In this document: in pieces, positions 14,170-41,664 of the stretch
Position numbering within the stretch: the first letter of the stretch is position 1
How the letters are laid out: the number at the start of each line of letters is the position of its first letter
Source of the DNA: Mesaphorura yosii
Taxonomy: Eukaryota > Arthropoda > Collembola > Poduromorpha > Tullbergiidae
Direction of reading: 5' to 3'
NCBI GenBank assembly: GCA_009869945.1
Contig: WIXG01000008.1
Coordinates: forward strand, 434,001-498,000
Length of the DNA: 64,000 nt
The notes under the pieces: generated by a model
What the model saw: only the letters and a program-made list of their open reading frames with translations
Databases searched by the model: none
Told to the model about the DNA's origin: nothing
Made by a program: the position numbers and the translations under genes

Positions 14170-15042
14170 TTGAAGTGACGACAGAATGCAAACTAAATGT
14201 GAGTTGAGCCCAGTTTCTCTCAAACGCGGAAAGCATGTGAAGTAATTTTTGGGTGAGTGTCAAAGCTATTTGTAGAAGAAAGTGAACATGAGCACTACAA
14301 TTTACAGTAATACAATTCAACTCAGCACTGCGCCTTGGATTTTGACGTTTGGCGTAGCACTCAACTAAATTGCAATTTAAACATATTTTGGACATAATGA
14401 TGACCAATCCATCACCTCATTCATCAGGTTTTTGCCACGCCTAGTGGCGCAAGAGAATATGGTAAGGTGGCTTTTCACAGGTACAAGCAAATAGAGCATG
14501 AATCACCCTGAACCGATTGAATATTGAATTTTAGCAGACAAAAATTAAGAAGTGTTCAAACCGAGAGTTGACAAAATTGAAGCGTGAATGAATCAAATCT
14601 GAAATCTGAGCAACAGGTGTCTAAACTGAAGTTCATACAATCAGAAGCGTTGCTGTAAAATCTTCCATTACCTCGAAGGTACTTGACAAAGTGATTAACA
14701 CCAGAAGCACTTGACACTTTCAGTATTACCAATTAATGGTGGGCGCTGTCAATTTTCACCCTCGGAGCCCAACACTTGACTTGACTAAAGGTGCGATTCA
14801 CTTCAAGCGTTTTAATAATTACCTAATACCTGGATGTGATGACTCATTTATTGCAGATAAGCGCCAAGCGACGATGTGTAGACACGACAAAAGACACCGA
14901 TGCCACGCTGAATGTAAACTTAAACGTAGATTGAACGTGAAACGGTAATTCACGCTTAAATGAGCAGGTATTTAAACACCGGGCTTCTGATTCGGAACCA
15001 TCATTCAACAAGTAACGAATTCTAAAGCCACAAAACGAAAAT
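14170..15042. other. divergent intergenic region between receptor copy 1 and MOXD1-like gene
   Basis: About 0.9 kb that must carry two divergent promoters. A TATA-like box is described separately. A minus open frame upstream of the receptor start (to 14407) has no clear content. No RNA gene is seen. Confidence 0.55.
14969..14976 (+). promoter_or_regulatory. TATA-like box for the MOXD1-like gene
   Basis: The sequence tatttaaa lies 74 bases before the start codon. An initiator-like tcattc follows about 30 bases later (near 15001), which would give a 5' leader of about 40 bases. This is based on sequence and spacing only. Confidence 0.4.
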
Positions 15043-17543
15043 ATGCGTGTCCACACTTTCGCCGTCGCGCTTACACTGCTTTGCTTTGGCAGTGCGTCCA
15101 TCACGGCCAAAAGTATTCGGCAGGCTGAAATTCGCGAAGAAAGGTTCAATGACAAGTACCACGTGCGATGGGAGAATAATTTCGAGAAGAAGATCATCTC
15201 GTTTCGTGTGACGGTCGAGACGAAGGGCTTCGTGGGCTTCGGCGTGTCTCCAAATGGCGGCATGACTGGGGCCGATCTGATCATCGGTGGCGTGTATCCG
15301 AATGGAACGCACTACTTCCAGGTTTGAGAAGATTGTCCTTTGAAGCCCGCTCGGTTTTGGAGCTAATTAGCTAATGGAGCGTGTTTAATTTAGGACTACC
15401 ACGCAACATCCAATTCACAACCAATCGCCGACGCAGTCCAAGACTGGCACCTCATCAGTTTCAACGAAAACGAGACTCACACTTTCTTGCAGTTCTATCG
15501 TTCATTTGACACTTGCGATGGCGAGGATAACCAAATAACCGTAAGAAAAATGTTCTTGAAAAGTAGATACCACAGACACTAACTCTCGGTTATGCCTTCT
15601 TTCTTCCTCGCACAGGAAGACAGCAATTACTTCATTTGGTCCTACGGTGAAACTGACAGCATTCAATATCACGGTGTCAACCGCGGTCAGGCAGCAGTAA
15701 ACATTTTAGACCCTCCAATGCCGCCAGTTGATGTGTCAAGGTAAAATTTCACTCATTTGCTGCCTTCCTTTAACATCCTATTGTAAGAATTCGTAAGAAG
15801 TTTTATGACCATGGTAGCTTTGAACGATGGAATATTCAGCGACGAATGGTCATGCCCTCAAACGACACCTCGTACTTTTGCACAATTCATAAGCGTCCAA
15901 TGCTTGCGGGAAAACGTCACATTGTTGGGGTGAGTAATTAAATGTGCTTCTACTTCTGGGCGCTTGCAACAGAATTATTTTGACGATAGTCTTTTTCTGG
16001 GTTTTAGTTTGATTCCTTCCTTCCAAGCCCTGAAGCGCTGAAGCATTCACATCACATCACCATTTCCCAGTGTACCGCCCCACAGGGGGAAGACGCTGAC
16101 GAAGTATTTGGACCCTTCCTTGACTTTCCCGGAGAGGAATGCTACGAGCGACCTTCCGTAATGCCAATGGACTACTGCCGCACAGTAATTTACATCTGGG
16201 CAGTTGGCGGGAAAATAACCCTGTTTCCTGAGAACGTCGGCTTTCCAACCAACGAGCCAGGAAACGAGAACGAGTACTTCCTCATGGAAGTCCATTACGA
16301 CAATCCGGACAAGCTGACAGGCGTTGAGTTCGAAACGGGCGTCACGATCTATCATACGGACGAGCTCAGGGAAGAAGAGGCAGCTTTTCTTCTTATTAGC
16401 CACGGCATTGTGATGACGCACATAATCCCGCCAAGATCAGTCAATTACACGACAGTTGGTCACTGCAGCCCAGCTTGCACAACGGAAAGGATTCCAGAGA
16501 CGGGAATTCAACTTTTCAACATTTTACTTCACTCACATTTGGCAGGTACTTGAATCGTACATCAACCAACACTTTAAATACTACGTGATAACGTACGATT
16601 AGTGGATCATGTGATACTCGTTCATAGGTCGCAAGTTGAAACTTCGTCATTGGCGAGATGGTGTCGAACTTCCATGGGTTGCAAATGACGAGCAATACAA
16701 CTTCAACTTCCAGCAGAATCGTCCTATTCGAAATGAGCGAACTATTTTGCCTGGAGACCAACTTGCTTATGGTAAGGTCCCAATACTTATCAGCCTATTG
16801 AATTGGCCCTAACGTAATTGTTATTGTCCTTCAATACTAGAGTGTGTAACGGACACGAGCGACAGAGACGTAGTAACACTTGGTGGTCTCTCGACAAGTA
16901 AGTGAAGTTCAAGTTTAAATTGTGTAACGTTCAAACGTTGTTTTCGCTCTCCTTTTTACGTATTTCGCAATTTTACGTGTTTTGTTTTTGCACAGGACAC
17001 GAAATGTGTGAAGCAATCATCTGGTATTACCCGCGACAGAATTTGCAGAGTTGTTCAAGTACCTATTTTGATTTGGAAAAAATCTTTGAACAGTTCGGCA
17101 TCAGTGATTTGACGTGGTACGCGTAATTGCGTGGTTGCTCAATCGATGTTGACTTTTCTGGTTCACACTGTAATGAGGTTCGATTTCACAGGGAGTATGA
17201 CGATTTCGACCCCACGGTCACCGCGCCTCCTTCCCAAGCAGGGAAGCTGTTCAGCCAAGTATTGAATGAGTACGCGTGGACTCCGGAAAATAAGGCAGAG
17301 CTGGAGCACCGCTTAAGGTACTCCAACCACGTGGATGAGTGCTACGGACCAAATGATAGCTGGGATACGATTAAGAGCACCATCCAGAAACGTGTGGCAG
17401 ATATGAGAGCAGGAAAGGGTCCTTTAGATGAGCAGCGCGAGATTACATACCCAGACATTGAAGAAGCATATACACCACCCGAAACTTGTTCAGCAAGAAA
17501 ACCATTGGATATGACTAGGGTCTACAATCATCACCACCATTAA
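15043..17543 (+). CDS. MOXD1-like copper monooxygenase (DOMON + Cu2 domains)
   Basis: Nine exons: 15043-15321, 15394-15540, 15616-15740, 15818-15929, 16008-16545, 16628-16771, 16841-16897, 16996-17116, 17192-17543, 624 aa, close to human MOXD1 (613). Order: signal peptide; DOMON domain (about 25-175); two copper type II monooxygenase domains. Copper ligands are kept: HH at 236-237 (motif KHSHHITISQC), His317 in MEVHYDNP, the H-S-H pair at 396/398 and Met471 in TRHEMC. The family hydroxylates by a dopamine beta-hydroxylase-type mechanism; the substrate of MOXD1 is not established. It is expected in the secretory pathway. The last intron removes an in-frame stop (17124-17126), so reading straight through would wrongly split the gene. 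The protein ends in four histidines. The tail faces receptor copy 2. Confidence 0.93.
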
Positions 17544-17735: not shown

Positions 17736-19186
17736 TCAGATTTGCCGTGTCTTCGGAATTTTAAGTTGAAACATAAACATCACGTATGTCATTACGGTAC
17801 CAGCAACCTGCAATAAACCCACACGAAATATTCAAATGCTTATATCAAATTGACAAAATATGCTCCATTAGGTATTAGGTCGACTGAATCAATTCCACTA
17901 CTTACCATCGGCAGAAGCTTCAAGTTTACGCCAAAAACGTTGGCAGCTGTTAACTTCCAGTTCCATTTCAAGACTGCAGCATATGCATTAAGTATCTACG
18001 AACAATAAAGTGGCCAAATTACAATTACAAATCGCCTCCATGAATGGCACATACTTTGACACTGACACTCACCTCTCGCTCTAGTTTCCCTCCGTTGCAT
18101 CTCAGAGCTTTATTTTCATTCCGCCTAGACCTGAGCCATTCCTTCGCTTGCTTCATCTGGGCATAGGTCGAAATCCGTTAAAGATATCTTCCAATACGGC
18201 TATTTACTTCTGACTTACTGCATTCTCGAATTGTTGGCCCGTGTAAGCCACCAGAAACAAGTTGACCACATGCTCAATAAACGCTGCGCTGCCTACGATG
18301 TAAAAATAAGTTTGGACGACCTGCTCAAGTCCCGTTTGAGTTTGTGTGGTGCGATAGATGTAGAGGACAATGAGGAATGTGTGGTCAAATACAAAAGCTA
18401 ATATTAGAAATCCGGAGACATTGCCGTACAAACAGAAGCCCGACTTGAGGGCATCAAATTTGCTAGACCAAAAGGATAGTTCTAGACCGCACATTGTTTT
18501 ACTTGAGAGACTTGACACCATTGTTTCGAGCTCGGTCACTTGTGCCACGTATACCTCCAATAATCGCTGGCTTAGTATGAGGACAATTCCACGAGAGAAG
18601 AACTTGGCAGCTAAAGCCACCAATTCGTTCCAAACAGTCAGTATATTCAGAGCGATAGGTGACAGTCGTAGAATCCAGCCGAGGAAACTCTCCACTTCAG
18701 TAACATAGAAAAGGCCGGTGCCCTTGAAAAAAATACTGACGTAACAACTGATCCGATCGAAGCAGCAATTGCGAAGACAAATAGCAGTGCGTGAAAGAAG
18801 CATCGGTTCGAGTCCGGATTTGATGGATTGCTTGCGCTCCTGGGACTGTTACAGATGTCAAAAAGTTTTTGCAACGTTGGAAGATTAAGCAAAATGATAG
18901 TTCGCGCTGATACTTCAACCCAGCACCAGAGCACGTTCAGTCCATTTGCCAAAATCAGCTGCGAAGCTGGTTTGCTTGCAACGGCCGCGAACGCTCTACC
19001 CTTCGCGATTGCCACGTCCAGTAAAATTACTGACGTTAAAGCGAAGGCGATGGTGACATAAGCCTTGGCTGCTATTCCCAGTTTTAGAATCCCAAATGAT
19101 GGGAACGGAATGCAACCGGACGCGTACCCAAAATAGAGGCAGCACTTGCACAAAAATGAGTTGATTTTGAATTTAGAATAATCCAT
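17736..19186 (-). pseudogene. gustatory receptor copy 2, one-base frameshift in exon 1
   Basis: Minus-strand exons 19186-18219, 18156-18073, 17995-17906, 17807-17736, about 404 aa if the frame is bridged. It is the closest relative of copy 1, with the same four-exon layout and phase 0 joins. The last exon encodes GTVMTYVMFMFQLKIP, a clean Gr-family TM7 signature. In exon 1 the frame breaks at a run of seven T (plus-strand A run 18727-18733): upstream sequence reads in one frame, downstream in another. One extra T would restore a continuous receptor that aligns with copy 1. It is either a recently broken gene or a homopolymer error in the assembly. All other parts look intact, which favours a sequencing error or a very young lesion. 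Confidence 0.8.
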
Positions 19187-20002
19187 TCTGCACTGGGTGG
19201 ATTCGCATTCAACCACTGAACGAACTTAATTTGAGGACTGGCTTTAATGGGCGTGAAAAATTTTCATATTATTTCTAATACATCTTTTCTTTACATTGAC
19301 ATGAGTCATTTTAATTCAGGTGAGTGCTTTCTTTCATATACAGACAATAACTTGCTCGTTTACTTACTGCAACATCAATTTTAACTCTCCTATCATCAAA
19401 TAATTATCCATGTAAGTGGAGTATATGCATCATTTCATCGTTCCAGTTACATTGAGAGATACGCTAAGCAATCAGTCGTCAAGGTTAGGTTAGGAATTGC
19501 TTTAACCTAACCTTGAAGCGTGAATCGCTGAAAGGTTATGACTGACTTGGTTTGACTTGAGAGAAGTCGGCATTGCTTGCCGTTGACAAGGAGTATCTTA
19601 AATATTTCGCTTTTGCTCATGTCACTACTCCACTTTAGCAATGGCAACACGGCAAAGTCGGCAATGTTGCAGTGCTGGATTTTATGGTCCATTGTTGAAA
19701 ATTAATTGCATGTGTGACGTTTTTCGGCACCTGGCACACAAGAACTCAATAACAAATATTCATGACCCTGAGCAATGCGATGGCAATAATAGCTGGCTGA
19801 ATACTGGGCTCATGCACCTGGATAAGAAGTTACTGAAGGTTATGACAACCAGCGTTCTCGATTTCTTTACCGATGAAGCCTCACTTGCTTGACTTCCACA
19901 CGGCAATTGATATCGTTTATTATAGACTGGAAACTCGTACGATTAACTCAGACTCATTACGAACTGTGTTTGGATTTCCTCGGTATCACTTCATCTTTCA
20001 AA
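19187..20002. other. intergenic region upstream of CD36-like gene
   Basis: About 0.8 kb between a minus-strand receptor and the plus-strand CD36-like gene. It contains a perfect 14-base inverted repeat at 19479-19516 (listed separately) and short chance frames. No gene is seen. Confidence 0.6.
19479..19516. repeat. 14-bp perfect inverted repeat with TTAGG units
   Basis: The left arm TCAAGGTTAGGTTA (19479-19492) and right arm TAACCTAACCTTGA (19503-19516) are exact reverse complements around a 10-base loop. The arms contain two overlapping copies of TTAGG, the arthropod telomere unit, in opposite orientations. It could form a hairpin. Confidence 0.85.
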
Positions 20003-21520
20003 ATGACGACGCGACGCACAGTTTGTCAAGCAGCCTGTGCACTTGTTGTGGCGCTGGTTATAATTTTGTTGGGAGCTTCGACAGTGTTTCTGCACAAAGT
20101 CGTTGACGAGATCATTGCCTCAAAGTTACCACTCGTCAATGACAGCAAGAGCTTCAAGCTCTGGCGTAAGCCACCAGCAACATCCTTCTTGAAGGTGTTC
20201 TTCTTCAACGTCACCAATGGCCAAGAACACATTGAAGATCCGAGCAACACCAAGCTGGCCGTTCAAGAATTCGGGCCGTACGTGTACAGCGAAGGATGGG
20301 AAAAGGTGGACGTGGTCTGGAATGCAAATGGTACTCTGTCGTACAAACAGAAGAAGGTGTACAAGTTCGAGCCGAATATATCTTCTGGGGCCGAAGACGA
20401 CGAGTTTACGCTCGCGAACGTGCCGATGCTGTCTGCCGTCACCGCGACAAGGCAAACTCCCAAATCTGCTAGAAAGGCCGTGTCAAACATGTTGGAAATT
20501 CTCCATTCGAAGCCGTTTATCAAGAAAACCGTGAAGGAGTGGCTTTGGGGTTTTGATGATCCAATCCTGAAGTTGGGCAGAATGACCGCACCGGATATGA
20601 CACCTTTTGATAAATTTGGATTCTGGTATGGAAGAAACGACACGCCAGGGAAGATATTCACCGTGCGAACGGGGCAGGAGCATGTTGAGGACTTCACCAA
20701 GATTGAGGTTTGGGATGGATACACCGAACTGCCATTTTGGAGCGGAAAATCCTGTAACGCAATTCGTGACACGGATGGATCCGGGTTTCGTGGGTTTCTC
20801 AACGAGTCTTCTACCTTGAGCATCTTTAATCAGGACATCTGCCGTTCTTTGAAGTTGGTGCGTCACTCTACTGTGCGTCATTCGATCGATTCGAAAGAGG
20901 ACACTGAAGCCTTCCGCTTTCAACCCGCCGACTCGATCTTCGGAGACACACAAAAGTTTCCTGAGAACGAGTGCTTTTGTCCTGATGGTCCACCGTGCTC
21001 AAGGCCAGGCACATTCAATGTGTCCACGTGTCAATTTGGGGCCCCCGTCTTTGTGTCATGGCCGCATTTCCTACATGGCGATAAGACACTCCTGGAGGAC
21101 TTGAAAGGACTTCAGCCGAATCAAAGCCAGCACCAATTTTACATCGACATCGAGCCCAAGCTCGGCGTTCCACTTCAAGCGAAGGTCAGATTCCAGATTA
21201 ACATTCAGATGCTTAAAGTAGAGCACATCAAGCAATCGGCCAATTTCGCAGAGATATTGGTTCCACTCGTTTGGTTCGAAGACGGGATCGATTCTCTGCC
21301 GGAAGAGTTGATGGACATTGTGCGCGACGTTGTCATTTTGCCCAAAACACTTCAAGCTTCGCTCGCTCTTACGGCTGTTGGAATCGGTGGGTTGGTCGTA
21401 CTCTGCGTTCTGGTCTACATTTCCTGCATCGCGCGAAAGAAATGTCGTGGAGATAGAAAACCGAAAGCGAGACAAGAGAACCTGGAATTTGACAATCTGG
21501 GACATAACATTACTAGTTAA
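20003..21520 (+). CDS. CD36/SCARB-family scavenger receptor, intronless
   Basis: A single exon codes for 505 aa, the usual length of the family. Features: N-terminal helix (about 8-32), large ectodomain, second helix near residues 455-480 and a short basic cytoplasmic tail. Family landmarks include GPYVY, WLWGFDDPIL, the Cys-rich stretch CFCPDGPPCSRPGTFNVSTC and FGAPVFVSWPHFL. CD36 proteins (croquemort, emp, SNMP, ninaD and others in insects) bind or pass lipids, carotenoids, pheromones or apoptotic cells. Which branch this is cannot be told by eye. The start is the MTTRR Met at 20003, directly before the first helix. An upstream extension of the frame begins without ATG. Neighbouring genes are rich in introns, so the lack of any is notable. 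AATAAA signals lie about 120 bases after the stop. Confidence 0.93.
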   Translation: MTTRRTVCQAACALVVALVIILLGASTVFLHKVVDEIIASKLPLVNDSKSFKLWRKPPATSFLKVFFFNVTNGQEHIEDPSNTKLAVQEFGPYVYSEGWEKVDVVWNANGTLSYKQKKVYKFEPNISSGAEDDEFTLANVPMLSAVTATRQTPKSARKAVSNMLEILHSKPFIKKTVKEWLWGFDDPILKLGRMTAPDMTPFDKFGFWYGRNDTPGKIFTVRTGQEHVEDFTKIEVWDGYTELPFWSGKSCNAIRDTDGSGFRGFLNESSTLSIFNQDICRSLKLVRHSTVRHSIDSKEDTEAFRFQPADSIFGDTQKFPENECFCPDGPPCSRPGTFNVSTCQFGAPVFVSWPHFLHGDKTLLEDLKGLQPNQSQHQFYIDIEPKLGVPLQAKVRFQINIQMLKVEHIKQSANFAEILVPLVWFEDGIDSLPEELMDIVRDVVILPKTLQASLALTAVGIGGLVVLCVLVYISCIARKKCRGDRKPKARQENLEFDNLGHNITS

Positions 21521-21842
21521 ATACTGAACTTACTTTCACAATTTCTGTTTGACAAACAAGTGCCTGCGACACGAATTATTTTCATTTAGCCAGCAATTAG
21601 GAAATTGTAAGATAGGATTATGCCACTACTTTTAGTTGAATAAATAAAAAACAAAATTAATTTTTGATAGAATATATCAACACAAATTGTCCACAGAAAT
21701 TGTATTAATCAAAGCGATTGACATTAAGATGACAGCGCTTACGAGTTCCGCCTCGAAAACAGTTGCCAATAATGCAAGATGATGAGTTGCAGTCGATAAT
21801 GAAGTTCAGTCAGAACAAGCCATAAAGGATTCATCATTGAGT
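21521..21842. other. short intergenic spacer
   Basis: 322 bases between the CD36-like stop and the next receptor start. Apart from overlapping AATAAA signals at 21639-21648 nothing was recognised. Confidence 0.6.
21639..21648 (+). terminator. poly(A) signals after CD36-like gene
   Basis: Two overlapping AATAAA hexamers lie about 120 bases after the stop codon of the CD36-like gene. Confidence 0.55.
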
Positions 21843-23433
21843 ATGAAGTCGGTGTCAACGTCGAATAAATCCAATAATTACAGTAGGCAGTACATCTTGC
21901 ATGATTTAGTCGTCCGTGGAGCTCTTGGAAGGATGGACAATCGTCTTCGGAGTCGAGGCGGTGAGGCTGGATTCACCAAGTCGATCGACTTCCCCATGCC
22001 CGTGTCCCTGAGGACTTTGTCTGGTCGTGCACGGCTCTTGTCGGCATCAGCTTTCCTCTTCTGGCTCCTCGGGTGCCGAATTTCGAGTTCTCCGTTCTTG
22101 AGCTCCGAGACTGGCAGACGTTTTAGCGGGAGAATCGGGTGGCTGTCAGGATATGGCATGATGCTATCTCTCCTACACGTTCTCATTTTCGTGTACACCG
22201 TCAGCAACATTCAAATAAGACCACAAGTCCATCTGGCCGAGCACATATCAAATTACGTTATCTGCGTCTTAACTTACGCTTTTGGACTCTTGAGAAGAGT
22301 GTATTACATCCGCATGCGATCGGACATCGATCGTCTCCTTGAGGGCGTTTACGTCTTTGAAGCCTCGTCAGCAAGAAATTCCTCAATTTGCACCAAGAAA
22401 CTCTTTTGCATTGGCGCGTACATGGTCTTATTTTTTGCGACTACCGTCATGCTGGCATATTCAACGACTTCGTCCGAGGCAAATAACCTGAGGTTATCCG
22501 CCACCGCCTCCATCACGGTACATGCGATTCTCGCCCTTCAATTGATTTGGGCAGTGTCGAAGGCATTTTCTATTGGTCTAATTCTGCTAATCGGTTCGAC
22601 ACTGATTTCCCATTACGAAGAGTGCATTTCGGAGTTTCTTCACCACGCCGCTGGGAACAAGTATGCTGACAACAGAGCTGCTTGGAGAGAATACAGTCTT
22701 AAATTTGAAAAACTGCAGCAGTTGATTTTGCTTTACAACGATGTGGCTGGGTTTCTGCTATTGTCGAGGCTCGTGGAGCATACAACGTTGATTGGCTCCG
22801 GATTGACGTACTTCTTCATATCAAGAACAGAAGTTCCTCCATCAATGTGGCTGTTCGCCCCATTCGCATTTGTTGAGGAGCTCTTTGGTCTGCTTCTCAT
22901 TACGCGGCTTGGACAGACCTGGCTGGACTCGGTAAGCCCTTAGTCGCGTCTTGCATCTTCCTTGTGACTCATTTGAAAAGCTTGAACGTTATATTTGTGT
23001 AGATGGAAAATGCAAAACGCAAGGTCAATTCGCTTCTACTGCATTTAAGCTTGGATTCAAGTTTCAACGAGGGAAATGCGCCCGTAAGTGAGCATCTCTC
23101 ATTTCTCTTCCGAAAATAAAATTCGGAAAGAAACATTACTTTATGAACTTCTTGCAGTGGACGGCAATGGGAAATCATATTCTGGCTTGGAAATGGAGGC
23201 TTTCTGCGAGTGGATGGGTTAACATGGATCATAAGCTGCTGCCATTGGTGAGACTTCAATCACTTTGCAATTTATTATTTGCACTTATCCTCCCTTGCTT
23301 AAAAGTATTTTACTAATGATTCGTTAGTTGACAGGTTGCGAGTGCTGTCATCTCCTACGTCATGTTCATGTTCCAACTCAAGATTTCTGAAGAAACCAGC
23401 GGCATGAGGCTGTCTAAAAGTGCTAGAACTTAA
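21843..23433 (+). CDS. gustatory receptor (Gr family), copy 3
   Basis: Four exons: 21843-22931, 23003-23083, 23158-23247, 23335-23433, 452 aa, all introns phase 0. Hydrophobic segments run through exon 1. Exon 3 has the WTAMGNHILAWKWRL motif and exon 4 the TM7 signature VISYVMFMFQLKISEE. The motif GCRISSSPF near the N-terminus is shared exactly with copy 4. The N-terminal 60 or so residues are hydrophilic and longer than in the other copies; the first ATG in frame (21843) was used, but a later Met is possible. It forms a head-to-tail pair with copy 4 and probably arose by tandem duplication. Confidence 0.85.
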
Positions 23434-23673: not shown

Positions 23674-25107
23674 ATGTCATTCTCAGTTGAAATTTCATTA
23701 AGCAAGAACCTTCCCAAGTTGTTAATATCTGCAGCACAAGTGACAGAAATGCAGTCAAATTTCGAAGTCAGGAAAGTCTGTCTTTGGAAGAAGTTGCTTT
23801 CTGCAGTTTCTTTCTTCGCGTGGTTAACCGGGTGTCGAATTTCGAGTTCCCCGTTCGTGGATTCGAGCAGCAGCACGGAGAATAGTAGCCTGAAAAGAAA
23901 ACTCTTATCCACGTACGGTATCATTTTTAATGCAGTCCACGCTGTTTTATTCGGTTACGTGCTTCTCGGCCTGGAAGTGGGGCATGATGTACGGTTTTCC
24001 GACAAAATCACGAATCATATGGCGTACGCTTTGGGCAATACAGCAGAACTCGCCAGAAGAGCCTGGTACGTTTATGAACGATCGGGCATAAATCACCTTT
24101 TCAAGGGTGTCGCCGCATTAGAGCTTTCTTCTGGACGGCGTTCGGCAGCGCTGAGGAAAGGAAGTGCGATATTTTGCACATATTTTGCGTTCATGGTCGC
24201 TGGTCTGATCTTCATTGCGTTCTTCATGGCTCGTTTGGAAGAAACATTCAGGTTCTTTCAGGTTTCTGGGTTCGTCTTGAGCGGTCCCAAAAATGTCAAC
24301 GCTCTCCTTCTCCTGAACATATTTTGGCATCTCTCGAAGGTAGTGACTGTGTGGCTGATTTTAATCATTGGCTCCTCATTGGTTGTAAAATATGAAGAAT
24401 GCATACTGGAATTTCTTCAACCTAATGAACATACAAGCTGGACAGAATTCAGGCAGAAATTCGAGAAATTGCAGCATCTAATTGAGCTCTACAATAAAGT
24501 CACTGGACCGCTCATGCTGCTGAATATCATTGACAATACTTCTTCACTCGGTGCGGGTTTGACGTACATGTTTTTGTCTCGCATTCATATCCCCATGCAG
24601 TTTCTCATGATACTCGTGATGGCGTTCACTGAAGAAATGTTGACCTTGCTTTTCACCGCTAGAATGGGACAGCAGTGGACTGACACCGTAAGCAATGCGC
24701 TGTAAGTCATTCTGATTTGCTTAGCATAAAAAATTCCTTTTCATGCCTTGTAGATGAACAAATCTAAGGACCGAATTAGAATTGCAATGGCGAACTTGAA
24801 GCTTAATTCAAATCAACGTGAAAGACGGCTTTTAAAAAATGTGACAGCATGGACAGCAACTGGGAACTATATTTTGGCCTGGAAATGGAAACTTACAGCG
24901 TGTGCCTGTATTAATGTGAATTACAAGATTTTACCTCTGGTAAGAAAGATAGACCGTGACATATCTCAACCAAGAATTGCATTAGGTTCGCTCAATTTTA
25001 ATTTGCAGATTTCGCATTACATCGCCGCCTACTTGATGTTTGTGTTCCAGTTGAAGATTTCAGAGGAAACGGCTGGCTTGAAATTGACGAATGGCACCAG
25101 AGCATAA
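23674..25107 (+). CDS. gustatory receptor (Gr family), copy 4, with one intron lost
   Basis: Three exons: 23674-24687, 24754-24939, 25009-25107, 432 aa. It is closely related to copy 3: shared GCRISSSPF, VKYEECILEFL and FEKLQHLIELYN segments. The second exon fuses what are two exons in copies 1-3; the frame runs without a break through NVTAWTATGNYILAWKWKL. The last exon has the TM7 signature AAYLMFVFQLKISEE. The ATG at 23674 is the first in frame. It is probably a ligand-gated sensory channel; the ligand is unknown. Confidence 0.85.
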
Positions 25108-26594: not shown

Positions 26595-29500
26595 ATGGCC
26601 TCGACTCCGATTGTTGTAGTTTGCTGGCCAATTTTAGTCCTGACATTCATAACATGTGTAGTGAATATTGCTGCTCGACCTCGCACTGACCAGCAATTAG
26701 GTTCAGGCTCAATTGCGTCTGTGCACGAAGAAGTGCTCGCGGACGGCTACGTCGTGCAATGGGAGCCTGATTATGAGAGGGAGACCATCACTTTTAGTGT
26801 GCTCGTGCAAACGACAAACTACGTTGGGTTTGGCATCTCGAATGGCGGCGGGATGGCGGGAGCCGACATTGTCATTGGTGGTGTTAATTCGGGAGATGGA
26901 GAGTCGAAGTATTTCGAAGTAAGAGCCATTTCAGCATTAGAATGCTTATGTTTTGCGAACGTGTCCTGACTTTTATTCTGTAACTAAATAGGATTATCAT
27001 GGCGTTGGTCACAGACCCACACTCGACGAATCTCACGACTGGACCCTTCTGGATGCTTCAGAGAATGAAACGCATACCAAACTGACGTTTTTGCGAGCTT
27101 TTGATACTGGTGACGAAGACGATACTGTTATAAATGTATGTTGAGCTACACATTCAGTATTATGCATTATTTAAGCAACTGCTAAAGGTGTTTTAAGTAA
27201 CCGATCGTAATGCTACAGTGGGAAGAGACAAACTTCATTTGGGCAATCGGGTCCTCCGACTCGATAGTATACCATTCTTTTCGTGGCTCCAAACCCGTAC
27301 GCGTACTTGAAGAGAAGAGCACAGAACCTCCTTGCGAAGATGTGGATCTGATCGTGAAGGAAGAGGATTTGACTGACAATTATCATGTACGATGGGAGGC
27401 TGATTTGAATCTGCAAGTAATCGAATTCCAAGTGACCGTTGGCACCACAGACTCCGTTGGTTTTGGGCTTTCCTACGGAGGCAGTATGGCAGGCTCTGAG
27501 ATTGTGGTTGGTGGAGTGAATGAAGACGGCACGAGCTACTTCGTAGTAAGCAGAACCACTGCAAATTAGAATCCCGAATCTTTACGTGTGCACTACAATG
27601 CAAGTTATTTCATTAGGCGTACCATGGCGGGACCGGAAACAGCCGACCCGACGAAGATGAAGTACAGGATGTTTGGAACCTTCTGGCCTCCAGTGAAAAT
27701 GAAACTCACACTGTATTGAAATTCTCACGAGCGTTTGACACCGGCGTTGAGCAGGACATTCCTTTTACCGTAAGCAATCGTAAAATGACAACTAAAGCTG
27801 AAGCTGATTAAAAAGTAATGTGAAATTAACGCACAGGTCGAACCAATATTTTTGATTTGGGCAGTCGGGACATCCGACACACTCGGCTATCATCAAACAA
27901 ACCGTGGACAGAGGCTGGCCACTCTCTTGGGTGCAGTGTGCCCACCACCAACCACGGCACCTACTGAAGAACCCTGCGAAGACAGAGAACCGGAACCGAA
28001 AGAAATGTTACTGAACGAGAATTACCTTTTACGATGGACAAACGATCTCGACACCCAAACAGTGCAGTTTCATGCCACCGTTAGGACACTTGGATATGTG
28101 GGCTTCGGCATTTCCAATGGCGGCGGTATGAATGAAGCTGATATCGTGATTGGAGGAGTCTTACCGAACGGAACATGTTACTTTGCGGTAAGGGAGCGTG
28201 AACAGTCAAGCAACAACCAACTCTTTCTATTACTAGTTTGAATTTGTCGATTAGGATTATCATGGGATTCGCCATTCACCCGTTCTGGACGAATCTCAGG
28301 ACTGGGTCTTTGTTAGCGCCACAGAAAATGGAACCCACACAGATCTAGTTTTTTATCGCGCGGTTGATACTGGAGACGAAGATGACACCGTGATAACGGT
28401 AAGTAACAAGAAATTCTACTTCGAAATCACTGTATCCAAAACCACGAATCGTCTACCTAATCCTTTTCTTATTTCGTTATTAGCTTGCACAAACAAACTT
28501 TATATGGGCGTCGGGAGGAACAGATGAAATTGTCCGCCATACCTTGCGTGGTTCAGCACCAGTGACGATTCTTGATCCACCGCCATGTGCGACTACACCA
28601 GCGCCAGTTACTGGGTCTCCCCCTGTCACTACAATCACGCCTAGCCCGTCCCCATCCCCGTGCATCTGGCCTGAAGCGCAAATCAATGAAAATTATCATG
28701 TACAATGGATAGCAGATTACGACGCACAGACAGTCGAATTCCAAGTAACTGTCAGAACCGTCGGATATGTGGGATTCGGGATGTCTCCAGGTGGTAACAT
28801 GATAGGAGCTGAGCTTATTATCGGAGGAGCGAATGAGGATGGTACCAGCTACTTTAAGGTAGGCAACCGTCGTCCTGAGAGTCCTAACTTGCCAGATATC
28901 TGGAACTCCTGGACTCTTATTTCTTAACTTGAAATAAGAGCTGTTTCTTTGTTATTGCCACAGGCTTACCACGGAGTTGCTAACTCAGCGCCTATCGAGG
29001 ATGAGATTCAAGACTTCTGGAAACTCCTGGCCTTTAGCGAGAATGGAACCCATACTCAACTGAAGTTCTCACGAGCGTTTGACACGGGAAATGCAAACGA
29101 TATTCCATTCACGGTACGTGCTACGTGGTACTTGTGTAATTTTCTCAGCTTTACTAATCATCTTGCCTCTCAATTCCCGCAGACGGAACCAGTCTACTTG
29201 ATTTGGGCTTTCGGGACATCCGACACACTCGGCTATCATCAAACAAATCGTGGGCCGAGGCTGGCCACTCTCTTAGGCCAACTTTGCTCAGATCCTTGCG
29301 CTGAACCGGAGCGAGAAGCAGTGCTGAATGAAAATTACTTCGTACGTTGGGAAACCAATGATGACGCCCAAAGTGTGCAGTTTCAGGTCATCGTAGCCAC
29401 GACAGGATACGTGGGTTTCGGAATTTCTGACGAAGGCGGGATGGTTGGAGCGGATCTCATAATCGGTGGAGTGCGTGATGGTGCCAGTTACTTCAGCGTA

Positions 29501-30623
29501 AGAATACCTGATTAGTATTTTTACTTGACACAGGACGTTACAGGATGTGTCCTTCTATTCAGGATTATCATGGTCTCGGCCCCATGGAACCTGTCCTGGA
29601 CGAATCTCAAGACTGGATACTTCTCAGCGCCGAAGAGAATGGAACTCATACTGAACTAATTTTTTCACGATCGTATGACACTGGCGATGATGATGACACC
29701 ATCATTACGGTAATTAAATTAACTATTGATTCTAAAGCATGCCACATTTTTTATATAACTGGATTATCTTGAATTGTTAGATTACACCAACCAACTTCGT
29801 GTGGGCATTTGGACAATCAGACGTGATTCAGCACCACGGCGTAAACCGTGGATCCCAACGCGCAGACATAATCGGCTCTGCGTCATGCACAACCCCGGGA
29901 CCCTGCTCCTTCTTGCAAGAGGAAGTTCTTCTTAACGACACGTATACTGTGCGATGGATTGCCGACTTCGACGCGCATAAGGTCGAATTTCGAGTTAAAG
30001 TCGAAACGGCTGGCTTTGTCGGTTTCGGCATTTCGAATGGAGGTACAATGGATGGAGCGGATCTCATTATTGGCGGAGTTACTTCGGCTGGAAACAGCTA
30101 CTTTGGCGTAAGTTTAGGAGGCTCTGGTTAAAAGTAGAAGTGGATACTAACTCTTCTCATAAATTACAGGATTATTATGGGACGGGCAATGTCAACCCAT
30201 TTTTGGACGAGTCTCAAGATTGGAAGCTGACAGGTTATTCTGCGTTCGGGAATTCTACAGAACTTGTATTCGAAAGACCATTCGATACAGGCGACAAGAA
30301 CGATGTCCCAATAACCGTATGAAGAATTTAAACTCATTAACCCAAACTAAACGTCATCTTTCGACCTGGGACTTTATTGGATTGTTTTGACACAGGAGGC
30401 CGAATTATATTTCGTGTGGTCGTACGGACCCAGCGACCATTCACAGTATCACGGCCCGGAAAATAGAGGATCCAAAGCGGTGAAGATCCTGGAACCAACC
30501 GATTCGTGTCGAATGCCGACGACCACACCCAAGTCCGGATCCGCGTCCATCTGGTTCTCTTCACAGATGTTCGTACTCATAGCCTCACTAGTATTAATGC
30601 TGTTCAATAGACAATATTTGTAG
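26595..30623 (+). CDS. secreted or membrane-anchored protein of six tandem DOMON domains
   Basis: Thirteen exons: 26595-26918, 26992-27135, 27219-27545, 27617-27769, 27837-28187, 28255-28398, 28484-28858, 28964-29113, 29183-29497, 29563-29709, 29781-30107, 30170-30316, 30396-30623, 1043 aa. All twelve introns are phase 0. It starts with a signal peptide and ends with a Ser-rich stretch and a hydrophobic tail, so it may be GPI- or membrane-anchored. Each DOMON is built from three pieces: a strand region with xxYxVRW, VGFG(I/L)S and (I/V)GGV; a short exon starting DYHG or AYHG and ending FDTG; and an exon starting xxFIWAxGxSD. No copper monooxygenase domain follows. DOMON domains bind heme or sugars in other proteins; the ligand here is unknown. 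The exon borders equal those of the DOMON part of the MOXD1-like gene upstream. Confidence 0.9.
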
Positions 30624-30891: not shown

Positions 30892-33800
30892 TCACATGAT
30901 ACCAGATACTGACCGTCGGAAGCTGATGATATTCAATGTAAATCTGAAAGTTAACCGTTTTTACTATTCGATCATCCGGTCCATTCGGACCAAACATCCC
31001 AAAATTTTGCATTTCTCCTTTTCGCTTACGTGTCTTTGTTTTTGTCTGTCAAACTCCTTTCAACTTGCGTGAACAATGCACCAAATAACGAAGCGATGGT
31101 TGCCCGTTTGTCTGCTGGCTGGGCTCCAATGAGCTGGACTTGCAGTTTCCCATAATACTGCAAGGTGAATGAAGTGAATCGAGCGTCAGAGCTTTCAAGC
31201 AGAAAATGTCACACGCTCATTTACATCCTCATTAAGAAGAATCAGTCCAAGCAAAGGTTTGCATATCGCCCAGGGACTTCGACATTCCTCGAACAAGCCG
31301 AGGTTCAGCAACGTTGCAAGTGCCTGCTGCAGGGCTTCCGGATGTTGTTCAATCGCTTGGAGAACTCGCAGTGAATTCTCATTTCTGAGCAGGTTGGCTG
31401 ATTTGTTCTCTATAGAAAAGACCGATAAGATTTTCAATTGTTAAATTGTTTCAGGAACCACAAGCTCATTTTCACATTTTCATATACCCTTGAATAAAAC
31501 TGTTTGATCATACAAGTACGTGATGATGTGATCAATTACGTTAACGCTGTCGACGATTACACCTTCCTCTATGAAGAATAATATACACTACAACAGGTTC
31601 AGATTATTCTCTCGCCGTCGTCCACGGTTACCTTTTGCTAGAATTCCTTCTGCGGCCGTTTGCAACACGTACAAGACAACATTTGGATCCACAGTGCACA
31701 GAAATTTTGTGTGGTCCTCAGCAACGTTTCGCAACAATCCGTAATAGGCCATTGCCAATTTCGCATTTTGCTGGACGAAAAAGAAAAACGTAACTTCCAA
31801 ATTCACTATTCTGTATTGCATGTCACTTACTGTGAGGTCAGCAATAGTTACAGTCACGGCGAGTTTCACAAAACAGTTCAAAGCATTGTCAACCGATTCA
31901 TCGCCGTAGAATTGCATAATGCCAAAATTAACGAAATTCGAACAGAAGGCTGTTCTGAGCAATTGGAAGCACAACGACACTTCTTTCAGCCTTACTGGTT
32001 CAAGCACAGGTTTGGCATTTTCATTCGGAAGGGCACCTCTCGAGCCTATTAATTGGATTATGAACAAAACAATAGACTAGTGCGCGACCTCGTGACCAGG
32101 CTTGTGGCAAGGAACTCACCATAAACGCACATCGTTTTGCTTATTTCACGAAACAAAATCACACAGTTTGCCGAAAAGGGTCCAAAATATAGCCGATCGT
32201 TTTGATTCTGCACGAGCTCAATGAAAAATTTCAAAAGTGGAGTCGTTACGTCGGGATCATGAGACCAGAACTGAACTGCGCGTTCAAATATTGGCAAATA
32301 CGCAGGGTGTCTTGCAAAAACACAACCATTGGCAATAGAAACGTCAGCCATTTGCAGTTACTAATTGTCCGGTGTTACGAGGACTGAACACGACTTACAT
32401 CCACTCGAAGAACATGAGATATGTCGGACGATGGCTGAAAGACTGTAAAATTCCACGAAGGTCGCGTGCAAGTCCCACCACAGTCCATTTTGTTTCTTCT
32501 GATTTACACAACACTGTCTCTGTATTTGATAGCGTTTGCCCAAGAAGCTCTAAAGTCGCTGTAAACACCTAATTAATAAACTTACATACTGTATAAGACC
32601 AAAAACGCAATACTCACTAGAAAACGGATCCATGAACCGTGTGAATACTCGTTTGTCATCATACGAATCGATTATCACAAACCGGCCCAGCGCCTTGTAA
32701 AACTTTGTCCGACGTCTCAAATGTTCCCGGTCCTTGTTGAGCCCCAGGAATGGAAAGTGTTCTCCCGTATAATTGTTGAGCATAAATTGAACTTCGTCCA
32801 TCTTGATAAACTTCCTTAAATTTTCATTGCTGCCGACTGACAGTTCGTTTAACAACTCAACTGTGGGTTGCACAACTGCCTCGGTGTTGCTCCAAAACTT
32901 TAAATTCATCAATCTGTTTGTTATGCGGAAAGTGATGTTCATGCAAATTGTTGCCTATAATGGTCAATGGTCCGAAATCGGCACAAGATGCTTACATCTT
33001 TCTAATCAGCAAAGTGAATACTGCAGCTTCGGATTCGACTCCGACGAGCTCCTTCATTCGCTCGTAGACTTTGGCCGCTTTTCGTGTGTTATCGCCCATA
33101 CATGCTGTATGGAAGCTGTGGAAGAATGCCAGAAATGCGGTCTCCAAATTCTCGCAACCCGCCCGCTTTTGAGTAAGTCGTTCATCGGTCAGCTGCATTA
33201 AGCGAACAATTCTGAAATTTACGCAATCCATGTTAGTATCGCGGAGGATAAAGAATATATGCTTGAGGCCGAATTTATCACCTGCTGATCAAATCCCCAT
33301 CGATCGTGTCATGAGAAGCATCAAAGAAGTATGACAGGCGTCCCTTCAGTGTGGCTGCGATCATGTAAATCAGCCAAGAGAGTTTACCTGCGAGGAGTTT
33401 ACTGTCGCGTTACCTGAATTTACAATTTGCCATTTTCCAGCTTTCGTACCTTCCAACAAGTTCAGTTCTGCAAGCGAAGTAGATTCTCTTTGCCACAAGT
33501 CTTGGTACGCCAGTACAGTTGCGTCGAAGAGCGGTGCGAGTAACTCAAACGTTGCTGGGAAGTCACACCGCCCAATTACAGCAAACTGCTCCATTTCCTG
33601 ACCAACGATCGTGTCATCTTCGAGTGCGTTCTGGAGTTTGTCCCTGAAAATGTGAAAAACGCTGGACACTGTGGACACAAACAAGCCGAACTGCCGCACA
33701 ATGAAATCTTATTATCAAGCTAAGCTTACCTCATGACTACTGCAACAGATTCTAATCTTGAGGAAATGTATGCATTCGTAATTTGGGGCATGACTTCATC

Positions 33801-35313
33801 CAGCCCATGATTTTCTCCTTCAGTATTTTTGTGATATGCGAGCGATGTGGACATATTCTGCCAAAACTGCAAGAGGAAATGCACACTGTTTGGCGCGATT
33901 AGCAGCATCTGTGTCAAACTGTCCACCGTGATTTTGGTAAGAAGACGAATAAATTCTCCGTAACATTCTGCGAGAATGAACTGTGCGAGATGAAAGTTGT
34001 TCTTTAGGACGTCAATCATTCTGCAGAATTCGTGATAATTCCTGGGGTCATTCAATCCGTGTAGGCTTTGCATAATTTTCAAAACTTGGCTGAAGAGGCG
34101 GTTAATGAATTCTTGCTTCTGATCCGTGTTACAATATTTGCCAAAGACCATGGCTTGGGATGCACAACTCAACGCCTGCGACGATATGTATTTAGAAACC
34201 CGCTACAAAGAATTATACTGTGAGGAGATTACCTTGCTAGAAAGCGGTGCTGGCACTAGGAAGTATAACTCAATGAAGAGCTGAAATACATTTGAGTCCA
34301 CCATTTCGGGGGCGCAGTTGTACGGAAGCGGACTTGTGAAACAATTCTCAGCCAAGTCAAGCAGTTCGTTTATGAGGACGACCTGCTACAAAGCAGTTGA
34401 ATTATATTTCGAGATCTTTCTTAACAAGCACAATGTGCAAAACCTGAGCAGGATCCTCCAAATTCAACCCTCTACTTTTCTCCAGTGCCAACTTCATTGA
34501 TGTGCGGCAGAGGTTCAGTATGTCAAGTAATGTCTCATTTCTAAACGATGCTGTAGTTCTACGCAACTTTGACAGGTATGTATTCGTGCACGCGTCCTGA
34601 GACTGACACATCTCACACGTGAGAGTTGACAGAATTTGCACTCCGATCGCGCACTGTTCAAGGGAACCCTGCAGTGAGATACGAAATTGAGACGAGATAA
34701 GATGTCACTCTCACTAATGAACTGACCTGAAGAAATGGTTGGACGTCTGCCACCACCTCGCGAAGCACGAATTTTTCGTTCTCCTTATCAAACCAGCTGT
34801 TTTTTAAAATGCGGGCGTATAATTGGGCGAGTGAGCGAACTACACGGGCGTCCAGCTTGCCACGGGTCAGGAGATAGTTGAGAATGTAATTTTCTGAAAG
34901 AACGTAAGCGAACTAATTGCTAGAAGGAACATCACCACGTAAATCTACCAAACTCACTTATTTGAATGCGCTCTTGCAGCGCAATGATTTGTGTTGGACG
35001 TGAGATAAGTTTCACCAGAGTGGAAGAAGCCAATAACTGCGCATATATGTTAGATCCGCGTTCCAGTAAAGCACGACATTTTGTCATCGAGTCAGGCGAG
35101 TTCTGCAATACCAGTGAAGGTTCGAGTTGTTGCAAGGATGGACAAAGTGCCACGAATCTGTCAGCGCAGAACCTGTGCTGTCGCTGTGTAACCTGGAAGT
35201 ACCTGGAAGTTGATGAGTATCTTTTCGGCTTCCGCTCTGGCAGTTGGGGCAGTCGTTTCATACAAATCCATACAAAACAGCTCCAGCTGCTGAATTTCCT
35301 GGTCTCCGGTCAT
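30892..35313 (-). CDS. XPO7: exportin-7 (XPO7/RanBP16)
   Basis: Eighteen exons (minus): 35313-35203, 35102-34958, 34893-34727, 34668-34444, 34382-34233, 34175-33730, 33643-33450, 33387-33282, 33211-32996, 32913-32618, 32558-32399, 32310-32120, 32045-31831, 31770-31632, 31568-31488, 31409-31225, 31157-31030, 30943-30892. The product is 1068 aa (human 1087). All joins keep frame. It is a nuclear transport receptor of the importin-beta superfamily that carries cargo with RanGTP. Recognised by KCRALLERGSNIYAQLLAS, LNDPRNYHEFCRMIDVLKNN, IAPNSVHFLLQFWQNM, TNAYISSRLESVAVVMRD, EVQFMLNNYTGEHFPFLG and the C-terminal ICKPLLGLILLNE. Start: the ATG at 35313 opens MTGDQEIQQLELFCMDLYE, aligned with the family N-terminus. 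The first donor sits in a duplicated 10-mer. Confidence 0.96.
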
Positions 35314-38491: not shown

Positions 38492-38870
38492 AATGCCGGG
38501 ATGAGTGCCTTGTGGATCCATCCTTTAATTATAGCAAATGGAAAATGTGTTTAATATTTAATTTTTTTACCATAATCTACACTACTTTTAAAATAAGCAT
38601 GCAGGAGTTTCTATTTTCTAATTTTATATTGAAAATCTTTCCTGCAAACATTAAGCTTTGAACATGTCAGTTGTGGTGGATAGGTTTTAATTAAAATTTA
38701 CATTCTACATTAGTGCCTTTTGTCACCTGTCTGTGTGTGCCAGTCACAAAGATTGAAAAAAGTTAATAAAGGTTCTACTATCTACTCTACTAATTGTCTA
38801 AATGGTCACACTAATACTGCAAACTGCTGATCAGTTCTTAATTTGAAGAAGCAATCAGATGAAACTCATT
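38492..38870. other. convergent 3' region between coiled-coil gene and NELF-C/D
   Basis: 379 bases. A plus-strand AATAAA at 38765-38770 probably ends the coiled-coil transcript. No gene is seen. Confidence 0.6.
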
Positions 38871-38875
38871 TTATT
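38870..38875 (-). terminator. poly(A) signal overlapping the NELF-C/D stop codon
   Basis: On the minus strand the stop codon TAA is itself the middle of AATAAA. Cleavage 10-30 bases downstream would leave a very short 3' untranslated region. Confidence 0.45.
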
Positions 38876-41664
38876 TGGAAAATGAGCTTCCCATTGACCG
38901 CTTCCGTGAGCTTTTTTGGCCTGAGGACGACGAGCTCGACGCTGCAGCGGATGCTGACGCTGATGTGGCGGCTTGTGCACGGCAGTGAACTACAGTAGAT
39001 AGTGAGTACTTTAAGAATAGAATAATTTCGCTGAAGCATGATTTTCTTACCAATAAACTCCGAGACAGTGTCATGATGATCAGTGCTCCCGCTTCCGTAG
39101 TGCGAGTCACCGCCACCGCTTCGGCTGAGTCCAGTGATGTCATCATCTTCCACCAATGGCAAGAACAGTGTGACAAAGTCGTGGCTGTATGGTGGTGAAA
39201 TCATATCGAGCACTTCCGTCACGAAGTACCGAATCAATGAAATATCCGTGTCTCCGTTTGCCCAACACGAATGTACATATTTTACAACGGGAATGACGTA
39301 GCCGCGACTCATCAAGTGCACCATGCGATCCAAAAGCATTTTTCTTTGCTCCAGTTGCACTAAAATTTCTAGTTCATCATTTTTGGCTTCAAAGAGCTTG
39401 ATAAGCAGATTGTGGATTTTCTGATGAAGAAGAGAGTGCGCAGTTCCAATTTCGTCGAGTAAAGCTATGTGAATTGGAGTGTGCTCCGTCGTCAAGTTGA
39501 AGTACGACGGCTCTGTTACTTCTGCCTCAACCCATGCTGCGAATTCCAGGAAGAATTTGTTTTAGACTAGTTCACGTAATGTTCAGTAATTATAATAAAT
39601 CCCTTTGAATGCTTACTTATAATTCCAACTGACACAACTGGGTACCGAATACATTGATAGATTGTAGGAATGTCCACCACTAACTCCGAACTCGTTTTGC
39701 CAACACAAAGCAAGACTTTCTCAATTGCCTGTATTGTGGTTTTCAGCTCGCTCTGTTTCAATGATTGTCTTTGGCCACGTTTGAAAGTCTCCAGAACGCT
39801 ACCCGCATACGCTAGCAAGAAAATGTATTTTGACTTGTGTTCTGGGTTCAGCTTTGAGGATGGCTTGAATAGAGCAGCGATCAGAAGATCTGTCGAGGAA
39901 AAAATCAAAACCAATTAATTTCAGGTGACCGGGTGACCCGCACACTGCATTAAACGAAATGAAATAAGGATTAATGGCGGACTAACCTAGAAACTGTGGG
40001 CTCCTTATGAGATCAACTGGCGGTGGATCCGTTGAGGTATACATTTTGTACAACTGTGTTATGTCAGCAGGGTTCAGCGCGCTTCGGCTCAACATAGACG
40101 AAAGCGCCTGGCAAGCTCGCGGGTAATTGGTTGACCCGTTGAGAGACATGATTATCTGAGTCACATCATGTCCCTTGTCTGAAGCACACTTCACAATCTC
40201 TTGGCTCAGACGCTTGATTAAATGAGTTCCCCGAGTGTTCCCCTGCATTATGGCGTGAAGAAGGACTTGGCTGTAGACAAATGTGTGCTCTGAGTGACAG
40301 ATCATTTCCTGAAAATTGGAACAGAAGTCACGATAACACCAAAATTAGAAACCATCAATATGAGTTATAATCGCCTACCGCAGTGTCTTTCATACACTTC
40401 AGCGTGGTCTCGTCATCTTTGCTGTCCATTATTTTCAGAATTGAAGTCTTAAGCATCCGAGAAAACACTTCAATTTGTTGGGCTGCTGTTGAAATACTGG
40501 TAATCTCGCCTTGATAGCCGGCGTCAGATATTAACTAGAAAAGGAAGTCCGTTCTAGAATTCTTTTCGTTCCATTTCATGAGACTTGCATTGACATTGGT
40601 GTACCTTAATTGTAAAGTTTAACATGAGACAATCTGGATAATCCTCCGCTAGTTTGTAAACTAGTTTTCTCCATGTTGGATGTTCAATCATTTCTGTCAA
40701 CCATCCTGGAGTCTTAAGTATGGTAAAATAATGGTGGAGAAAGAGTCATAAGTCCGAGATCATTTAGAACTCCATTCAAAAATCGTACCTCTCCCTCTTC
40801 AGAAAAGATCGAATCGGCCTTCTTAGGGTCAAACGATTTTACAATCATGTCAGTTAGGCTGGACTCCACTTTATGCCGAACTTCATTGATATTGGCTCCG
40901 GCTGATATCACCCATTCTGCCATTAGATTTGCCATCTGAGCGTACGCATGATAATTTGTTGAAAGAAGGTCGATCACTTGCTCGGGCGAACCGCCGGCTT
41001 GAAAATATCTGAAGTGAGCAATAACAACATGCTATTTACAGCTGCATATGATAGCGGGCAAATATACGGTCGATGGATTGTGTGTAATAGCACACGCATT
41101 TACCTCTTCAACTGATTGAAAATTCCAGGCTCCATGATATAATCGGGAGTCGCAAATTTGGCCAGGCAATCATCCAGCACGGCATGATTCTTCCCGGATT
41201 CATCGACGTGGATCTGAAAGATGGGGTCATCCATAAATCATTGAATAGCGTCATTTGTTACATTCCATATGCGCTAAGTGAAGGAAATTGACACAAGATC
41301 ATAAGGCTAAGAGCAAAGAGTATCTTATGGAATGTCGTAATGAACGAGCCACAAATTGGCAATTAATCAGACGTTTAGATATCACGTCCACAATGTCATG
41401 CGCTCTATCATTGCGGGAGTTACAAAAACTAAAACTGACATTAGTAAGTAAGCAAATGGAACAGTTCATGCACAACAATTTTATTGCGTGATTCTTAGTA
41501 TTCGGATACTGTCCGCTTCCGGTAGTTCCTCAACAACATACCTCAGCGTCATCCCGAAGGGCTCCAGGTGCTTCTTCGTGTTCTTCCCACGGGCGACTAC
41601 TCACGGCTTCACCAGATCGTGTCCAAGTCCTCTCTTCAGTGTCATCATCGTCAGGCGACTCCAT
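38871..41664 (-). CDS. NELFCD: negative elongation factor C/D (NELF-C/D, TH1)
   Basis: Nine exons (minus): 41664-41542, 41213-41104, 41008-40789, 40712-40605, 40534-40379, 40308-39987, 39889-39617, 39536-39051, 38989-38871, 638 aa. NELF-C/D is a subunit of the NELF complex that holds RNA polymerase II in promoter-proximal pause. Diagnostic segments: [92 protein letters not shown] and SEFIVHCRAQ. The N-terminus is short and acidic as in relatives. The C-terminus has an extra Ala/Ser run after the conserved end. The start ATG lies 28 bases from the start of the divergent UPF0598 gene. Confidence 0.96.
41214..41541 (-). other. first intron of NELF-C/D
   Basis: 328 bases, much longer than the other introns of the gene. 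Short frames inside have no content. It might hold control elements for the shared promoter; nothing specific is seen. Confidence 0.6.

Follow-up and report, generated by a model that had tools for sequence, protein, structure and literature searches.

The window analysed here, a stretch of 64,000 nucleotides from the springtail Mesaphorura yosii (contig WIXG01000008.1, positions 434,001 to 498,000 of the forward strand), carries on its plus strand, at window positions 26595-30623, a gene that codes for six DOMON domains in a row. Hand splicing resolved it into 13 exons (26595-26918, 26992-27135, 27219-27545, 27617-27769, 27837-28187, 28255-28398, 28484-28858, 28964-29113, 29183-29497, 29563-29709, 29781-30107, 30170-30316 and 30396-30623), placed by their splice sites and by a continuous reading frame. 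All 12 introns are of the GT-AG type, interrupt the frame in phase 0 and measure 62-105 nt. The spliced frame encodes 1043 residues and contains a single stop, at its end, and none internally, in agreement with the first-pass annotation, which had claimed one gene of about 1043 residues.

A signal peptide and a hydrophobic tail had been claimed as well, and hydropathy analysis indeed located membrane-type segments solely at the two ends of the protein, with peaks from residues 5 and 1020. The most hydrophobic segment of 15 residues starts at residue 6 and falls within a predicted signal peptide of residues 1 to ~28 (26595..26678, plus strand; cleavage site set by eye). The C-terminal tail with its hydrophobic stretch covers residues 1014-1043 (30531..30620, plus strand). 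Its hydropathy peaks start from residues 1020-1024, including a 19-residue hydrophobic peak from residue 1020, and it closes with the polar end NRQYL. Read by eye, the tail may be a glycosylphosphatidylinositol (GPI)-signal-like sequence or a short type I anchor. An end such as NRQYL seems unusual for a GPI signal, which counts against GPI-like tethering.

The Pfam profile DOMON (PF03351) matched the whole protein in six separate stretches with 498.8 bits (cut-off 32.7; E=5.1e-152), and all six domains were matched when scanned singly. Six-frame profile searches of the genome (93.0 Mb, 1127 contigs) recovered the same six N-terminal halves on the contig of the window (C8:460745-464110, window 26745-30110). 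The only further families for the whole protein up to E=10 were CDH-cyt (PF16010; 37.3 bits, cut-off 27, E=3e-9) and DUF1918 at chance level (E=0.72); copper monooxygenase, b561, reeler, DM13 and chitin-binding domains were not listed up to this value. An NCBIfam scan gave one chance-level match (E=0.11). In the genome searches, Cu2_monooxygen and Cu2_monoox_C had no match at 26.6-30.6 kb of the window, the nearest one lying at 16035-16767, and b561 (PF03188) was absent both from the Pfam list of the protein and from the matches on contig C8. The first-pass annotation had described six DOMON domains in a row without an enzyme domain and had named a smaller number of DOMONs in profile searches as evidence to the contrary; the searches returned all six and no enzyme family. 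One gene model with six DOMONs and no enzyme domain makes the product multivalent, and a secreted or surface-bound multivalent protein, as had been proposed, is supported by this anatomy.

The alignments assign the domains to two types and show 38 invariant columns across them, including one Met and one His. Domains 1 (26718..27314; Met87, His175), 3 (27993..28579; Met414, His500) and 5 (29306..29879; Met743, His829) are of type A and domain 6 (29913..30497; Met900, His987) is A-like; domains 2 (27348..27935; Met246, His335) and 4 (28661..29281; Met587, His675) are of type B, all on the plus strand. The types differ in a putative metal site. According to the account of the structure of dopamine beta-hydroxylase (DBH), Asp99, 114, 126, 130, 155 and 158 surround a putative group 1 or 2 metal ion, and Cys154 bonds the DOMON to the dimerisation domain (PMC4846438). 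All six Asp residues are kept in domains 1, 3, 5 and 6; in domains 2 and 4, position 99 is Glu, 114 is Ala and 155 is Val (domain 2) or Asn (domain 4). The Asp cluster would bind a metal ion in some of the domains only. The position of Cys154 is occupied by Gly in all six domains, as is expected for a DOMON freed from its enzyme. However, it is also Gly in 2 and Ala in 1 of 27 enzyme-linked domains of the genome, defined as DOMONs followed closely, on their own strand, by a copper-domain match. An assembly duplicate as source of the repeats was rejected, since the domains are only 43-67% identical to one another with a proportion of silent differences (pS) of 0.64-0.85 between domains; four equivalent intron pairs that were compared, which have no obvious likeness by eye, also disfavour it.

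The ancestry of the array was assessed with a maximum-likelihood tree of 41 domains, comprising the 27 enzyme-linked ones, 8 that are not enzyme-linked and the 6 of the array. Rows with fewer than 95 filled columns (C151, C421, C486, C646, C21 and C244) and two duplicate loci were omitted. The six domains formed one clade with the four domains of two other loci, C632 and C442 (support 95/89), and the next supported clade added the DOMON of an enzyme gene at 15.1 kb of the window (97/95). This relative lies upstream on the same strand and spans at least 15043..16767, with DOMON exon matches at 15127-15714 followed by the copper-monooxygenase matches mentioned above; its copper domains were also matched in the open reading frame (ORF) 16008-16550. 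Within the array, domains 2 and 4 paired (100/98) and grouped with the second domains of C632 and C442 at 93/73, below the threshold; domains 1, 3 and 5 clustered and were joined more weakly by domain 6. The tree fits a layout (A B)(A B)(A A'), and the grouping of domains 2 and 4 suggests a two-domain (A-B) ancestor. Speaking against such an ancestor, a single origin with all six domains forced into one clade was not rejected (approximately unbiased test, p-AU 0.28). The ratio of nonsynonymous to synonymous change, dN/dS, was 0.17 for domains 2 and 4 and 0.24 for domains 3 and 5 in a simple Nei-Gojobori count, in which silent sites were saturated in 11 of 15 pairs.

By their profile matches and position in the tree, the six domains are identified as DOMONs of the MOX/DBH type, kin to those of copper monooxygenases. 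The array most likely arose, in a direction of descent that we infer, from a copper-monooxygenase-type enzyme that lost its catalytic part and whose DOMON was duplicated. We hold this view of the anatomy and ancestry of the gene with high confidence. A single family uniting all DOMON-only genes was rejected: the 14 DOMON-only domains of the tree did not tolerate being forced into one clade (p-AU 0.0029), and hence the enzyme part was probably lost repeatedly among these genes.

The array is not isolated in the genome, which holds other DOMON-only genes, two of them with two domains and several apparently with one. The six-frame searches yielded 72 DOMON, 41 Cu2_monooxygen and 49 Cu2_monoox_C matches, mostly counts of exons and not of genes; by position, there are ~30 copper-monooxygenase loci. 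Long open frames within this DBH/MOXD1-like family reach 783 aa (C836), 676 aa (C844) and 674 aa (C1103). In a springtail genome paper, DBH-like monooxygenases are named as one of the expanded families that include stress-responsive genes (PMC5490193), and the expansion of the enzyme family seen here is therefore not unique. Several DOMON loci have no copper-domain match nearby. Besides the two-domain loci C632 and C442, five (C341, C18 at 192 kb, C421, C15 and C192) appear by eye to encode secreted proteins with one DOMON; three of these, C421, C15 and C192, have a hydrophobic tail at their end, likewise by eye. Among the loci read, only the gene described here has more than two DOMONs, and six is the largest array. 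No DOMON was matched beside b561 at the four b561 loci (C2, C739, C3 and C140; ~9.5-9.9 kb each), and no DOMON-b561 fusion was seen in the genome at the search sensitivity used. Two divergent DOMON pieces at C486 stand beside acidic EPEGEP-type repeats and a transmembrane-like segment, on a contig free of copper-domain matches.

The first-pass annotation had offered heme, sugar or catechol-like compounds as possible ligands and had proposed a check for the heme-ligand residues Met and His. Both residues are present in all six domains, spaced by 86-89 residues, which supports heme; for catechol and sugar, inspection revealed no supporting residues, and no further search was made. Comparable pairs have been described as candidate heme ligands in HYP1 (M90/H174, spacing 84; PMC10784544) and as probable heme ligands in the fly protein CG8399 (Met286/His379, spacing 93; PMC10691727). 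One locus of the genome, C646 (3638-4537 of the extracted locus, minus strand; PF03351 E=9.6e-9), codes for a CG8399/FRRS1-type DOMON with the motifs SSDPYMGSD and LGYHKDP, in a frame that closes with a hydrophobic stretch; no b561 match was found on its contig, and it looks like an animal counterpart of the plant protein AIR12. In a MAFFT alignment this DOMON, with a spacing of 98, was placed Met-to-Met and His-to-His with the six domains. A profile of the 41 domains compared with three fungal cytochrome domains put the Met column on the Met of the motif GGAM of cellobiose dehydrogenase (CDH), in which a Met and a His bind the heme (probability 76.8%, E 2e-5). We take this residue to be the heme ligand Met65 of CDH, and the PDB entries 1pl3 and 1d7c differ exactly at this Met. 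The CDH-cyt match of the whole protein points the same way. Of the 41 domains, 39 retain the Met, and the His is found in 35 of the 36 that have a residue at its column. The second DOMON of C442 is the sole domain of the 41 without the His; it has lost the Met too (Asn and Gly occur in their place), a paired loss of putative ligands. At C660, only the Met is lost.

Several observations weigh against heme as the ligand. The hhalign match to CDH stops short of the His column. With the six domains only, the probability of the CDH match was 37.9%, and 1.7% against the single CDH sequence; up to E=10, the six-domain profile found DBH only in the PDB and no heme cytochrome domain. When scanned singly, one of the six domains matched CDH-cyt (E=0.0096). 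Moreover, the pair is equally conserved in the enzyme-linked DOMONs, with Met in 26 of 27 and His in all 22 that have a residue at the column (5 gaps), and it is thus not special to the array. The literature searched revealed no heme role of MOXD1-type DOMONs, as far as the accessible parts of these papers go, and together with the equal conservation in enzyme DOMONs this means that the pair may be kept for a different ligand or for the fold itself.

Our best explanation as a whole, adopted tentatively and with a probability somewhat short of even, is a tethered six-DOMON protein of MOX descent that binds heme. The catalytic domains of a copper-monooxygenase (MOXD1/DBH-like) gene would have been lost and its DOMON multiplied, perhaps via a two-domain (A-B) intermediate, and its product would be secreted and presumably tethered to the membrane in a GPI-like manner. 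Each DOMON would hold a b-type heme between its Met and its His. The result, a cytochrome or heme binder outside the cell with as many as six hemes, would be a six-fold version of AIR12. At the cell surface it could accept and donate electrons at several sites or carry heme; for electrons to hop along the array, the domains would have to be closely packed. Taken by itself, the heme mechanism, in which the tethered protein would resemble AIR12 as a b-type cytochrome or heme binder but offer up to six sites, is a possibility that we rate as slightly more doubtful. A more specific version is unlikely, namely a free-standing tethered b-type cytochrome with six hemes, in which metal-loaded domains would alternate with metal-free ones over the first four or five and which would store electrons outside the cell or carry heme.

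The main rival, nearly as likely and itself on the unlikely side, is a heme-free multivalent binder whose pockets hold a small molecule such as an amine, a catechol, an ascorbate-like compound or a sugar. The array would add avidity at the cell surface, for instance as a sink or co-receptor, and Met and His would be kept for other reasons. The array format suggests such avidity, and the equal conservation of the pair in enzyme-linked DOMONs favours this explanation too. For DBH, the structure paper proposed that the DOMON holds an unidentified ligand and a metal ion and suggested ascorbate, fumarate, dopamine or norepinephrine for the pocket; it stated that this DOMON has no heme ligands (PMC4846438). 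The human DBH DOMON is also reported to be without the Met/His pair (PMC10691727); in our alignment, its Met column is Leu, and the alignment stops short of its His column. The proposed holder of such ligands thus reportedly does without both residues, and the fold does not need the pair, which counts against this rival. Amine- or sugar-specific residues were not identified by inspection of the six domains.

Distinctly unlikely is an extracellular matrix or cuticle protein, in which a strongly acidic and probably glycosylated array would bind cations or matrix partners in a Knickkopf-like or coral-DOMON-like fashion. The protein contains 150 acidic versus 52 basic residues and eight N-glycosylation sequons, the host has many cuticle genes (66 matches of the RR cuticle domain in the genome), and the DOMON proteins of coral settlement were classed as extracellular matrix or adhesion proteins (PMC3204972). 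Neither DM13 nor a chitin-binding domain was listed for the array protein, however, and the other DOMONs of the set compared are acidic too, with a mean net charge per 100 residues of -7.0 in enzyme-linked and -7.5 in other DOMON-only domains against -10.3 in the six.

A regulator or decoy without catalytic activity, made of the DOMON of the neighbouring MOX enzymes and competing with them for a partner or ligand, would suit the position of the closest enzyme relative ~10 kb upstream on the same strand. We consider it improbable, as the Cys by which the DBH DOMON is bonded to the dimerisation domain is replaced by Gly in all six domains and nothing else indicates an interaction. Very improbable is an error of the gene model, with the exons split among two or more genes of two or three DOMONs each: the model was read from DNA alone, two-domain DOMON genes exist elsewhere in the genome and the phase-0 introns would allow in-frame exon skipping, but the whole span holds a single signal-type and a single tail-type hydrophobic segment, the spliced frame has no internal stop, and exons 3, 5, 7, 9 and 11 each combine a domain end with the following linker and the first half of the domain after it, so that adjacent DOMONs share exons, which argues against two fused predictions. 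A two-gene model was accordingly judged unlikely, with no internal stop and no second signal-type segment in the hydropathy profile.

The six-DOMON gene follows a CD36 gene on the same strand (ORF 19877-21517; PF01130, E=1.6e-137), and the CD36-like neighbour claimed in the first-pass annotation was confirmed. The chemoreceptors claimed beside it are plausible but not proven: the two upstream ORFs 21786-22940 and 23674-24702 (plus strand) are multi-pass, with four membrane-type segments each, and had no Pfam match. Together with ORFs 13225-14259 and 18207-19225 on the minus strand, they surround the CD36 gene; the four ORFs carry 2-4 membrane-type segments and have similar endings, those scanned had no Pfam match, and they are possibly a gustatory-receptor-like cluster. 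On the other strand, downstream of the gene, no Pfam family matched ORFs 31591-32076 and 33729-34202, and a TH1 exon lies at 38869-39561. Elsewhere in the window, ORF 8243-9325 (plus strand) matched APD1-4_M, the middle domain of the E3 ligase APD1-4 and a plant-named family (E=7.7e-12). Scans of the window for tRNA genes and Rfam families gave 0 matches.

Six-fold, tandem or multi-heme DOMON arrays were not encountered in the open-licence literature searched; proteome databases lay outside this search, and similar arrays may be annotated elsewhere. The Knickkopf family carries DM13 domains beside its DOMON, in contrast to the array protein, which had no DM13 match up to E=10. The two-DOMON proteins C632 and C442 resemble the array in their signal-peptide-like start, their DOMON-only content and their place in the same clade; they differ in having two domains, a second domain without introns and no hydrophobic tail in the frames read. 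DD1 of Daphnia pulex, a kairomone-responsive arthropod protein, is described as having a signal peptide and a DOMON and a domain structure unlike that of DBM/TBM; by that description, one DOMON is named (PMC2888767). Wording on multiple or two DOMONs was met only in papers on b561 and ferric reductases (PMC10691727, PMC3591440). The CYBDOM proteins (CG8399/FRRS1, HYP1) share with the array a DOMON whose Met/His pair is proposed to hold heme. They possess one or two DOMONs, the latter in 19 of 888 insect matches (PMC10691727), and a b561 domain that was not found in the array protein. AIR12 from plants, a GPI-anchored protein with a single DOMON, is cited as a b-type cytochrome studied by electron paramagnetic resonance (PMC10784544). 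By this description it is, like the array, DOMON-only, secreted and probably membrane-anchored, whereas the array has six domains instead of one, comes from an animal, is kin to MOX-type DOMONs and has a putative heme.

Among the known systems close to the array, the DOMON of human DBH (PDB 4ZEL) and of MOXD1-type enzymes is of the same subtype (profile match E=1.9e-12) and shares with four of the six array domains all six Asp residues of its putative metal site. Unlike these enzymes, the array is without copper domains and has six copies of the DOMON, with Met and His where DBH reportedly has neither and Gly in place of Cys154. A natural protein that consists of a MOX/DBH-type DOMON repeated six times, with both putative heme residues kept, allows the role of the domain to be considered apart from the enzyme. 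Should heme be bound by its domains, an unnoticed heme may also be present in the MOX enzymes of the genome, as these have the same pair. The complete and altered versions of the DBH metal site, united in one protein, offer an internal comparison.

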